The notes beneath the pieces are model-generated. The model ran no database searches, was not told where the DNA came from, and was given only the letters and a program-made list of their open reading frames with translations. Below, one piece after another: positions 20,789 to 34,464 of a stretch of 34,506 bases of DNA. Location of the stretch: positions 1-34,506 of IMG/VR virus record IMGVR_UViG_3300034073_001797; one strand, written 5' to 3'. Made by a program: the position numbers and the translations under genes. Origin of the DNA: a virus. The first letter of the stretch is position 1. Each line of letters begins with the position of its first letter.

Positions 20789-21658
20789 CTAGAGCCAGGA
20801 TGGTGTGCCAAAGTACGTTGAGAAATCGACTTCTCGGTTGACGCGACGGTCAAGGATGTCAGGCAGTTGGCCAGCGGACTTGAGCGTGCCGTTGCTGTTG
20901 AGGGCCACGGGGTTGACGGCCGCCACCTTTTCGCCGCTGTCCGGGTCGATGACGTACGCCCGCTTCTTGACGCTGCCGTCCAAAAAGTTGTATCCAACGT
21001 CGGGCAACTGCAGGTTCCAACCGGTTTGGCGGTACGCCAGTTCACTCGTAATCGCCCAGTAGTTCACCTCAGCACCGTTGACGACTTCGGTCTGCTGTTG
21101 GCCGCTGATGCCGATGCACTTCCAGTGATGGGCGGGAGCGCCGAGGTAGGTGCCTTGGTTAACGGTGTTAGTGACAGCGACGGCAGTGGCCAACGGAAAG
21201 CTGGCCCGGTTGGCGTTGATCGTGGCCCGGCACTCGCCCTCTTCGGTTGTCAGGCCCTCAAAGTAGTCAAACGCTGAGTTGACGAGCGGCTTTTGCGTGG
21301 CACCGTCCCAGTAGAACAACGCCGGCACCGCAGCGCCGCCAGTCGAGAAGCTCCACACGTCTGGCCTGGCCAGCGGGTTGGGGTCTCGCTCGTCTGGGTT
21401 GAGCACCTCGTAGCGATACGTGATCTCGGCGTGAAACGGTGACGGGCTGCCCTCGGTCAACTGGGCATCCGTCATAATCATGAACGGATATTCGGGGTGG
21501 GGTGCCCCGTGGAAGATGCCGACCGTGTTCGCGGCCTCGGTGATGGTCGGCGCTGTGTTGTCGAGCGTGAGAACGAACTTCCGCTCAGCCGACGGCGGCT
21601 CGCCGAACCGGTGCGAGAAGGTGCGTCCAACGAGCTCGCGGTAGGCCAGAACGCTCAC
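20789..21658 (-). CDS. Tail protein after the tape measure, 289 aa
   Basis: The ATG at 21658 overlaps the tape measure stop by 4 bases. It opens MSVLAYRELVGRTFSHRFGE. A beta-rich body (FVLTLDNTAPTITEAANTV, AEITYRYEVLNPDERDPNP, WSFSTGGAAVPALFYWDG) is followed by a C-terminal part with AYVIDPDSGEKVAAVNPVAL. Genes directly after the tape measure usually encode distal tail or baseplate-hub parts. The sequence does not match a known Dit family by eye, so the function is inferred from its place. Confidence 0.55.
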   Translation of the reverse strand: MSVLAYRELVGRTFSHRFGEPPSAERKFVLTLDNTAPTITEAANTVGIFHGAPHPEYPFMIMTDAQLTEGSPSPFHAEITYRYEVLNPDERDPNPLARPDVWSFSTGGAAVPALFYWDGATQKPLVNSAFDYFEGLTTEEGECRATINANRASFPLATAVAVTNTVNQGTYLGAPAHHWKCIGISGQQQTEVVNGAEVNYWAITSELAYRQTGWNLQLPDVGYNFLDGSVKKRAYVIDPDSGEKVAAVNPVALNSNGTLKSAGQLPDILDRRVNREVDFSTYFGTPSWL

Positions 21659-23349
21659 GCTGCCCTCCCGGCACCGCCGATAATCTTGACCTTCTCGGCC
21701 TGCAACGCGGCAATGTTGGCGTTCATCTTCTGGAGCTCGCCGAGCTGCTTGCGGTACTCTCCGATGGCCGGATCCTCACGGCCTGCGGCAATGCTCAGCA
21801 CCTCACTGATGCCGCCTGATCGGATGTCGCCAACTTGTAGGGCCTGGTTGCTGCGGCGGGAAAGGGCGTCCAGGCGGTCGGCTTCGATCTCGGCGGCACG
21901 CTTGGCACGGTCCTCTTCGGCCTTGGCTATCGCCTCATCGGCACGCTCAATAGCCTTCAGCCGCTCTTCCTCAGCCTTGCGGGCCTCTTCGGCTGCTTTT
22001 CGGGAAGCCTCGGCGGCGGCTGCTTGCTGCCGTTGTGCGGCTGCTTGAGCGCGCTGGGCCTCTGACTCGGCCTGGCTGGCAGGATTGTTGCGGTTGGCAA
22101 ACCGATCGCGTGCGGACTGCACCGCCCTGCTCGCAGGACCGTCGGACGCCTGCGGCAAGCCAGAGCCACCAAACACTGCGGCGGACGCTGCTCGTGTTAT
22201 TCCTTCGCCAGCCGACTGCAAATCGGCAACATTTTTTCTGCCTGCTTCCAGTGCGTTGGCTTGAAAATCTTTGCCAAACTGCTCAAGGTCGCTGCTAACC
22301 CAAGACCCTAGCTCCTCAAGGAACTTGCCCAACGCCAATGCGATGCCGTTCCCAATAAGCTCGAACGTGTTAAAAATCGCCCGCAGCGTTTCGCTGATTG
22401 CCGTAAACACATTTGCCACGAACTCAAACACGGTTGCGGCCGTTTGCAGGCTCGCGCCAAACTCTCCGAACTGGGCGATGGCGGCATCAAAGATGCCGGC
22501 TATGTACTCAGCGAAATCCAGCAGTCCTTCAGTTAGAGCGTCGGCGATGCCGCTGCCACCGCCACCACCAAAGCTATTGAAAGACTCGACGAACAGCAGA
22601 AACTCTTCTGCCAATGCAGAAACCACCGGGGCCAAGTTGGCTGTTACTTGGCCGATGATGCCGTCAAACGTCTTGCTGACCAAATCCAGCGAGTCGTTCA
22701 TTTGTTCGATAGCGGCTGTTTGATCGCCCGAAAGCACAATGCCCAAGCGGTTGGCCCTGGCTTCGACTTCCTCGAGGTTGCTGGCAAACAGCGGCAGCAG
22801 TTCGACGCCCGTGCGGCCAAACAAGTCAACGGCTGCGGCAGCCTGTGCGGCAGGATCTGGAATCGTTGCAATGGCTGCGGCCACAGCGCGGAACTGGTCT
22901 TCCGGCGTTAGCCCTGCAAGCTCTTCAACACTCAGGCCGATGTTTGTAAAAGCCTTCTGAGCAGCTGCAGACCCTGCGGATGCGTCACCCAGCGTAATGC
23001 TGAGACGCTGCAGGCCGCCCTCAAGGTTTTGGACGCCAGACAAATCTGCTGCTACTTGGAAGCCTTGCAAGGCCTCGATTGCAATCCCGGTGCGCTGGGA
23101 CAGCTTGGCGGTCTGGTCGATGCTCTGGGCGACACCGAGGGCGTAGTCGGCAGCAGATCGCGCAGCGCCCGAAAATGCCGACGCCAGCCGGGTGCCGATC
23201 TCAATGCCGACGAGAGCGCGAAGCGAGCCTGCGGCACTAGCAGCGGATTTGTTTAGCCGTCCAAGCAGGCGCTCGGTCTGGTTGACACCACGCCCAATCC
23301 CCGCCGTGTCGGCGGTGATCTTCATGTTCAAGCCGACTGCAGTGGCCAT
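21655..23349 (-). CDS. Tail tape measure protein, 564 aa
   Basis: The ATG shares a base with the chaperone stop (TAATG). The N-terminus (ITADTAGIGRGVNQTERLLG, LNKSAASAAGSLRALV) matches the usual tape measure start, with repeated helical and hydrophobic parts (VFEFVANVFTAISETLRAIF, LIGNGIALALGKFLEELG) and a long Ala/Glu/Lys/Gln coiled-coil toward the C-terminus (QAAAAEASRKAAEEARKAEE). It sets tail length and passes into the host envelope with DNA. At 564 residues it predicts a short to medium tail, roughly 80-90 nm at 1.5 angstrom per residue. The preceding genes are the G and GT chaperones. Confidence 0.85.
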   Translation of the reverse strand: MATAVGLNMKITADTAGIGRGVNQTERLLGRLNKSAASAAGSLRALVGIEIGTRLASAFSGAARSAADYALGVAQSIDQTAKLSQRTGIAIEALQGFQVAADLSGVQNLEGGLQRLSITLGDASAGSAAAQKAFTNIGLSVEELAGLTPEDQFRAVAAAIATIPDPAAQAAAAVDLFGRTGVELLPLFASNLEEVEARANRLGIVLSGDQTAAIEQMNDSLDLVSKTFDGIIGQVTANLAPVVSALAEEFLLFVESFNSFGGGGGSGIADALTEGLLDFAEYIAGIFDAAIAQFGEFGASLQTAATVFEFVANVFTAISETLRAIFNTFELIGNGIALALGKFLEELGSWVSSDLEQFGKDFQANALEAGRKNVADLQSAGEGITRAASAAVFGGSGLPQASDGPASRAVQSARDRFANRNNPASQAESEAQRAQAAAQRQQAAAAEASRKAAEEARKAEEERLKAIERADEAIAKAEEDRAKRAAEIEADRLDALSRRSNQALQVGDIRSGGISEVLSIAAGREDPAIGEYRKQLGELQKMNANIAALQAEKVKIIGGAGRAA

Positions 23350-23660
23350 TAGCTACCTCGCAGTTCCTGCTTGAGTTGCCGCAGCGCGGCTGCGATTTGC
23401 TCGGGGTGCTGCGGTGGCTTTGTGATTGGCACGAAGTCGACAGCTTTGGGAGGCCGGCCCTTTGGCGAGTACGGGGCCAGCATCGAAGACGCCAGCACGC
23501 CGGTCTGATGCCACGGGTCGGGCAGCGGCATAAAGTACGTGTGCACCGCCACCCACTCGCTCAGCTCTTGGGAGTCCATCTCGGTGCATATCTGTTTCAC
23601 GCTCTTCCCAAGACATGCGGCCAGCCGGAACAGAAACAACCGGGCGGGCCGCAGGTTTAG
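23349..23660 (-). CDS. Tail assembly chaperone T part, made as a -1 frameshift fusion (gpGT)
   Basis: This frame is open from the slippery site and contains LFLFRLAACLGKSVKQICTE, then QELSEWVAVHTYFMPLPDPW, the usual T-domain landmarks of siphovirus chaperones. A -1 slip at A-AAA-AAC (23666-23660) puts ribosomes from gpG straight into it, giving a predicted fusion of 114+103=217 residues. A separate TTG start at 23639 is possible but needs no frameshift. gpGT escorts the tape measure during tail assembly and is not part of the virion. Its stop overlaps the tape measure start. Confidence 0.8.
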   Translation of the reverse strand, partial: LNLRPARLFLFRLAACLGKSVKQICTEMDSQELSEWVAVHTYFMPLPDPWHQTGVLASSMLAPYSPKGRPPKAVDFVPITKPPQHPEQIAAALRQLKQELRGS

Positions 23661-23666
23661 TTTTTT
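23616..23666 (-). promoter_or_regulatory. Programmed -1 ribosomal frameshift site with hairpin
   Basis: A-AAA-AAC (23666-23660) is a textbook slippery heptamer in the gpG frame, directly before the TAA stop (23659-23657). Six bases after it starts a hairpin: TGCGGCC (23653-23647) pairs with GGCCGCA (23622-23616), and an inner CCGG/CCGG pair lies inside the loop. Confidence 0.85.
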
Positions 23667-24001
23667 GCGAGCTCCTCCACGTCGGCGTCGGTCAGCTTGT
23701 TGTGCTTCATGGCCGCTTCCCAGAGGGTGCCGACGACGCGGGCCGACTTCTTGGCGAGCACGTCAACCTCTTCCTTGGTGAACAGCAGCTCGCCCTTGTC
23801 GTTGCAGAGAACCCGCTGCAGGAACTTGCTGCGGAAGTTGGGGACGCCGGTCGACTTGTTGGCCATCCACTCGTTCTCGTAGCTGTCGCGCTCGCCAACG
23901 CTCATGACGCGGATAAAGACGGACCCGCCCCACTCGGGCACATTCACCTCGAGGAGGCCCAGGTCGTCGGCGGCCAGAATCTGTTCTTTGGTCAGTGCCA
24001 T
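23657..24001 (-). CDS. Tail assembly chaperone gpG, 114 aa
   Basis: The ATG at 24001 begins MALTKEQILAADDLGLLEVN, with PEWGGSVFIRVMSVGERDSY, a short beta-rich domain, and a helical C-terminus (EELAKN). The layout and length fit tail assembly chaperone G, which coats the tape measure. It ends GCA AAA AAC TAA, in the slippery frame for the fusion. The gene lies between the tail tube genes and the tape measure, as in lambda and many siphoviruses. Confidence 0.75.
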   Translation of the reverse strand: MALTKEQILAADDLGLLEVNVPEWGGSVFIRVMSVGERDSYENEWMANKSTGVPNFRSKFLQRVLCNDKGELLFTKEEVDVLAKKSARVVGTLWEAAMKHNKLTDADVEELAKN

Positions 24002-34046: not shown

Positions 34047-34464
34047 GGAGCGATGTCCTGGCGGAAGGGTTGAGCCCGAAGTCCTGCTCGAGCTGTCGCA
34101 GCTGAGTGGCCAGCTTGTGGGCAATGCTGACCTCGGGCCTCTGGGCGACGTACTTAACCTCGCCGGCGTCGTTCAAGATTGGGTACGTGCACCCGTCCTT
34201 CTTGAGAATCGCACGGGTGGCAAGCCACCACTCGTAGGTGTCGCAGTAGCGGGCGAGCGCCTCGACATCGGCGTCGGTCATGACCTTGACGCCCTGGAGC
34301 AGCGGCAGCAGCTCGTGCCACTTGGCCTGGGCTAGTTCGCCGAGGTGTCCAGGCATGACGATGCTGGAGGCCGGAGGTGTCGGCTCGCTTTTAGGTTTTG
34401 ACCTAAGCGTGCCGCGTGCCAGCTTAACGCCGGTCGGAGCCGGACGGGGACCGCGTTTGCCCAT
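33988..34464 (-). CDS. terS: Terminase small subunit, P27 family, 158 aa
   Basis: The ATG at 34464 follows AAGGGGG. MGKRGPRPAPTGVKLARGTL, PPASSIVMPGHLGELAQAKW and ALARYCDTYEWWLATRAIL are the P27-type small-terminase blocks, ending in LRQLEQDFGLNPSARTSLHV. It binds the packaging site and recruits the large subunit. The gene begins the structural operon; only 42 bases lie before it and no promoter box is convincing there. Confidence 0.85.
   Translation of the reverse strand: MGKRGPRPAPTGVKLARGTLRSKPKSEPTPPASSIVMPGHLGELAQAKWHELLPLLQGVKVMTDADVEALARYCDTYEWWLATRAILKKDGCTYPILNDAGEVKYVAQRPEVSIAHKLATQLRQLEQDFGLNPSARTSLHVEKPKADGDDEAAAILFG

Follow-up and report, generated by a model that had tools for sequence, protein, structure and literature searches.

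Results

The G/T pair and its junction

The window analyzed here is the whole of a 34,506-nucleotide viral contig (IMG/VR record IMGVR_UViG_3300034073_001797), and the element under study is the junction between two overlapping reading frames on its minus strand, G and T, which very likely directs programmed −1 ribosomal frameshifting, so that, as read from the sequence, two tail assembly chaperones, G and a G-T fusion (GT), would be made from one start. The structural genes of the 34.5-kb contig are encoded by the minus strand and arranged as is usual for siphophages, i.e., terminase, portal, protease, capsid, connector proteins, tail completion, G, T, and tape measure, and the G/T pair therefore follows the tail completion gene and directly precedes the tape-measure gene. 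The coordinates of the features are given in Table 1.

Table 1. Features at the G/T junction and its surroundings (positions in the window)
Feature	Position	Strand	Remarks
G, tail assembly chaperone	23657..24001	minus	0 frame, 114 codons + TAA; PHROG 344
Shine-Dalgarno-like GGAGG	23674..23678	minus	7 nt 5' of the heptamer; read from the sequence
Slippery heptamer A_AAA_AAC	23660..23666	minus	in the G frame; sole copy in the window
0-frame stop TAA	23657..23659	minus	adjoins the 3' end of the heptamer
Stimulatory hairpin (putative)	23616..23653	minus	outer stem 23653-23647/23622-23616; inner pairs 23645-23643/23626-23624
T extension	23349..23660	minus	−1 frame, begins at CTA 23660; 103 codons + TAA; PHROG 337
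Tape-measure gene	21655..23349	minus	PHROG 9483, E 8.5e-35; ATG overlaps the T stop

The 3' end of G reads GCA-AAA-AAC-TAA, in which the slippery heptamer takes in the two final sense codons together with the base 5' of them. A reading of this DNA made earlier from the sequence alone (the sequence-only reading) had placed A-AAA-AAC in the frame of gpG against its TAA, followed by a −1 frame open for 103 codons and a fusion of 217 residues, and all of this agrees with the present analysis, because the −1 frame reaches a TAA at 23351-23349 and the two frames sum to 114 + 103 = 217 amino acids. AAAAAAC occurs once in the window when both strands are counted, with 1.14 copies expected in shuffled sequences. 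Since there is this single copy, the chance that an in-frame heptamer would fall within the last ten codons of G can be estimated at about 1e-4.

Both frames can be assigned to tail chaperone families. G is, by family and predicted fold, a tail assembly chaperone: it matches PHROG 344 with an E value of 1.1e-24, and an AlphaFold model built with 18 relatives (predicted local distance difference test score 79, predicted template modeling score (pTM) 0.66) finds the HK97 tail assembly chaperone, 2ob9, as its top match in the Protein Data Bank (PDB), with a Foldseek probability of 1.00, a template modeling score of 0.54-0.57, an E value of 3.6e-3, and a VIA Z of 8.6, while YqbN and a PICI protein rank behind. 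This likeness lies in the fold, whereas the sequence similarity between G and the HK97 protein is marginal (E 0.68), and the PDB sequence search gave no reliable match. The T-like domain that had been proposed for the −1 frame is supported by PHROG 337 (E 1.3e-9). The score against the Pfam family Phage_tail_T, which is the lambda T model, is below the cut-off in the window (5.5e-4; 20.7 bits versus 25.9 bits) but exceeds it in two relatives, L021 and L180 (28.2 and 31.2 bits). A tblastn search of T against isolated phages gave no matches, and its predicted model is of low confidence (pTM 0.39).

Conservation of the junction among relatives

IMG/VR was searched with G, T, and an alignment of T, which confirmed 164 relatives of G in that database and, together with one planctomycete contig, yielded 71 distinct junctions. 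The heptamer, the stop, the hairpin described below, and the −1 frame are retained together across these junctions. A_AAA_AAC abuts the stop in 60 of them, and in ten others G_GGA_AAA is found one codon 5' of the stop (G_GGA_AAA_NNN, then the stop). The stop is TGA in 29 junctions, TAG in 23, and TAA in 19; the use of three codons at the same place indicates that the stop itself is kept while its identity is not. The −1 frame is about 100 codons long in nearly all relatives and is broken in L037 and L023, where about 31 codons precede the disruption (69 in place of 103) and G and the slip site are intact; a deletion or an assembly error is possible. In L192, a contig from a Planctomycetota genome, A_AAA_AAC is placed 88 bases 5' of the G stop and does not abut it, which means that the length of the G/T frame overlap varies widely among distant relatives. 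The GGAGG upstream of the heptamer may be an additional stimulator, although Glu-Glu codons probably account for it in part; GGAGG, GAGGA, or GGAG is found in 56 of the 71 junctions and none of these in 15.

The hairpin downstream of the slip site

The heptamer is separated from the stem by a spacer of 6 nucleotides (nt), TAAACC, and the outer stem consists of 7 base pairs, TGCGGCC/GGCCGCA. The perfect 7-base stem at this distance, which the sequence-only reading had described, is thus found both in the sequence and in the computed fold, and an inner pairing exists as well, although the fold gives GCC/GGC rather than exactly the 4-base CCGG/CCGG that had been drawn. Over the 71 junctions, the hairpins have a mean folding free energy of −20.4 kcal/mol, with spacers mostly of 3-8 nt.

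Because the hairpin of the window is unexceptional when taken alone, as detailed below, a synonymous test was made across lineages, in which codons were swapped for synonyms drawn from the G and T of each locus with the peptide kept. The sample comprised 30 lineages with less than 92% identity in T, scored in 45-nt windows; the lineages are related, and the counts are therefore not independent events. In the 45-nt window immediately 3' of the slip site, the mean z was −2.3, with 28 of the 30 lineages below −1, and the remaining windows of T had mean z values between −0.7 and +0.65, the last position being represented by one lineage only. A structure a few nucleotides downstream of the slip site is under selection, which is convincing across the relatives only. 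The stem is retained by clades with different base pairs and is not conserved base by base: paired Arg and Ala codons in the stem switch jointly between clades (CGG with GCC in 32, CGC with GCG in 27, CGG with GCG in 1), so that one clade uses CGG/GCC and another uses CGC/GCG one register over, while a third register prevails in the G_GGA_AAA group. Clade B has compensatory changes at two inner pairs, and just 3 shuffles out of 500 attained its covariation score. When all the hairpin codons are taken together, conservation at synonymous sites is not raised (0.47 versus 0.49 elsewhere); this measure gives the hairpin no support, probably because the clades use different codons for the different registers.

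Several observations weigh against a hairpin-stimulated frameshift. Judged from the window only, the hairpin does not rise above chance in dinucleotide shuffles (z −0.96) or reach significance with synonymous recoding (z −1.6). Strict covariation is absent in clade A, to which the window belongs, where the outer stem hardly varies, and the covariation in clade B is modest. In L191, a distant planctomycete locus, no hairpin follows the heptamer and the stop (z +0.45). One of the 71 junctions, L087, has AAAAATC in place of the heptamer. Finally, in Escherichia coli A_AAA_AAC is a weak heptamer that shifts far less readily than A_AAA_AAG (PMC5009743), an efficiency that may not carry over to the host of this phage. 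As for L087, its stop, hairpin, and −1 frame are intact; its slip site may have been lost naturally, or AAAAATC may be an error in sequencing.

The shuffle range of the window hairpin and the lack of compensatory change in clade A would fit an explanation in which the frameshift is real and the hairpin merely results from a conserved peptide being encoded by GC-rich codons. We consider this improbable, because the synonymous control preserves the peptide and is nevertheless exceptional across the 30 lineages at the hairpin position only, and because different registers are maintained by different clades.

Less likely alternatives: independent initiation and altered mRNA

Another explanation is that T is translated, perhaps through coupling to the end of G, from a start of its own, which would make the fusion unnecessary; the candidates are the TTG at 23639 and a conserved ATG, codon 28. 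The TTG is in frame 21 nt past the heptamer, and the ATG is retained in nearly all relatives, but the TTG lacks a Shine-Dalgarno sequence in the window, no candidate start has one in 29 of the 30 lineages, and codon 8 is TTG in just 15 of the 71 junctions and GTG in 7. Moreover, the invariant residues P5, F11, L13, A14, and L17 all precede the ATG. Counted in the −1 frame over T codons 2-7, which lie before the TTG, the share of sites that differ between lineages is 34% for first, 12% for second, and 58% for third codon positions; over codons 28-90 it is 31, 21, and 51%. The −1 frame is protein-coding from codon 2 on, upstream of any likely start. An unconserved TTG, the lack of a Shine-Dalgarno sequence, and coding conservation before the TTG together form a strong argument against independent initiation, and an efficient start at 23639, which the sequence-only reading had named as a possible sole source of T, is not supported for the same reasons. 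Independent initiation would also leave unexplained why the heptamer is invariant or is swapped for another X_XXY_YYZ heptamer, and we regard it as very improbable. Least probable of all is slippage of RNA polymerase on the six-A run at the junction to give mRNA of altered length that encodes the fusion, since known transcriptional slippage requires longer runs, the ten relatives with G_GGA_AAA have a site suited to tandem slippage of the ribosome and not to transcriptional slippage, the C at the seventh base is retained in the 60 A_AAA_AAC junctions, and the selected hairpin sits at a ribosome-stalling distance.

Discussion

Proposed mechanism

In programmed −1 frameshifting as we propose it, the majority of ribosomes would read A-AAA-AAC and the stop and release the 114-amino-acid G, while a minority would be delayed by the hairpin 6 nt downstream with AAA in the P site and AAC in the A site. 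Re-pairing one base back on AAA-AAA, presumably by tandem slippage, would then allow translation to continue through CTA-AAC-CTG into the 217-amino-acid GT. The junction peptide of GT would contain ELAKNLNLRPAR, in which the A-site codon still contributes Asn. As in lambda, the tape-measure protein might be covered by many copies of G and a few of GT, whose T part might recruit the tail-tube subunit. A minor share of GT would be in line with the 6 and 7% frameshifting measured with reporters for two tail chaperone genes of the HK97 type (PMC3711429).

Comparison with known systems

In lambda, a low level of −1 slippage yields gpG and gpGT at about 30:1, an arrangement that is conserved widely among long-tailed phages. 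The site described here very probably represents this lambda-type G/GT frameshifting, a long-known arrangement in tailed phages, because a two-product chaperone gene before the tape-measure gene, a −1 slip close to the 3' end of G, and a T-like extension are common to both. The two differ in that the G_GGA_AAG of lambda is located some codons before the G stop, whereas A_AAA_AAC here abuts the stop, and in that no stable hairpin follows the lambda site (z +0.88 in the same synonymous test). The sequence-only reading, in which the locus was a textbook case of the lambda kind, therefore holds for the G/GT arrangement but not for the hairpin, which is an addition and not part of the lambda archetype. 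In having a stable, selected structure a few nucleotides downstream (6 nt in the window), the site resembles those of the dnaX and IS3 type.

A_AAA_AAC in tail chaperone genes has been recorded for phiCbK and its relatives (PMC3556154), possibly for the Paenibacillus phage Dragolir (PMC6003738), and for the archaeal virus HCTV-2 (PMC5009743); in the phiCbK region that we examined, the chaperone gene was not seen. A precedent in layout is Acinetobacter phage Loki, for which the heptamer was reported to be immediately adjacent to the chaperone stop, the passages of the paper concerned mentioning the heptamer and not a hairpin (PMC5313236). The abutting-stop motif is thus already published, and the site here is not a new arrangement. 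Loki (gp12/gp13; L197, 10020-10070) and its relative IME_AB3 (L199), also an Acinetobacter phage, each have a strong hairpin after AAAAAAC and the stop, at the same distance as in the window. For these two and for the distant planctomycete locus L194, the synonymous test gives z values from −4.2 to −5.4 immediately downstream of the site. Loki and IME_AB3 differ from the phage of the window in host, and the searches used did not find a sequence relation in G or T. Among the closest known phages by G (37-38% identity) are the Streptomyces phages phiSASD1 (gp35/35.1) and Dubu (13/14), in which the pair is annotated as a joined coding sequence with the heptamer abutting TGA, but the heptamer is G_GGA_AAC; phiSASD1 has no hairpin after it (z +1.2), and Dubu has a moderate one (z −2.0). 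In these two homologs and in Jflix2, the joined coding sequence precedes a tail or tape-measure gene.

One tentative suggestion, to which we would give somewhat less than even chances, is that A_AAA_AAC against a stop with a selected hairpin is a recurring tail-chaperone signal that has arisen or been kept in distant or unrelated phages, perhaps because the weak heptamer, unlike the G_GGA_AAG of lambda, needs a stimulator to attain the required ratio of G to GT. The repeated pairing is a lead from few cases rather than an established rule.

Host and implications

The findings indicate that a family of uncultivated phages controls the stoichiometry of its tail chaperones as lambda does. They also provide a natural series in which the heptamer, the stop codon, and the register of the hairpin vary while the signal is kept, which would be useful for understanding why some shift sites need a stimulator. 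The 217-amino-acid product would be absent from automatic annotation, because gene callers usually miss such fusions. One relative belongs to a metagenome-assembled genome of Planctomycetota, in which it may be a binned phage contig. In a search of Planctomycetota, a strong match to T was found only in that genome and weaker ones in 6 of 391 others, so a planctomycete host is a lead and not a result.

Other features of the window

Scans of the window with Rfam and for tRNA genes gave no matches. A 28-base stretch at 34253-34280 is 89% identical to 23667-23694 in the last part of G, some 10.6 kb distant; this is probably a chance likeness of coding sequence. The stop of T overlaps the start of the tape-measure gene in the sequence TAATG (23349-23351), and a similar overlap, TAATG or TGATG, is found in several relatives; translation of the tape-measure gene may thus be coupled to ribosomes that finish GT.
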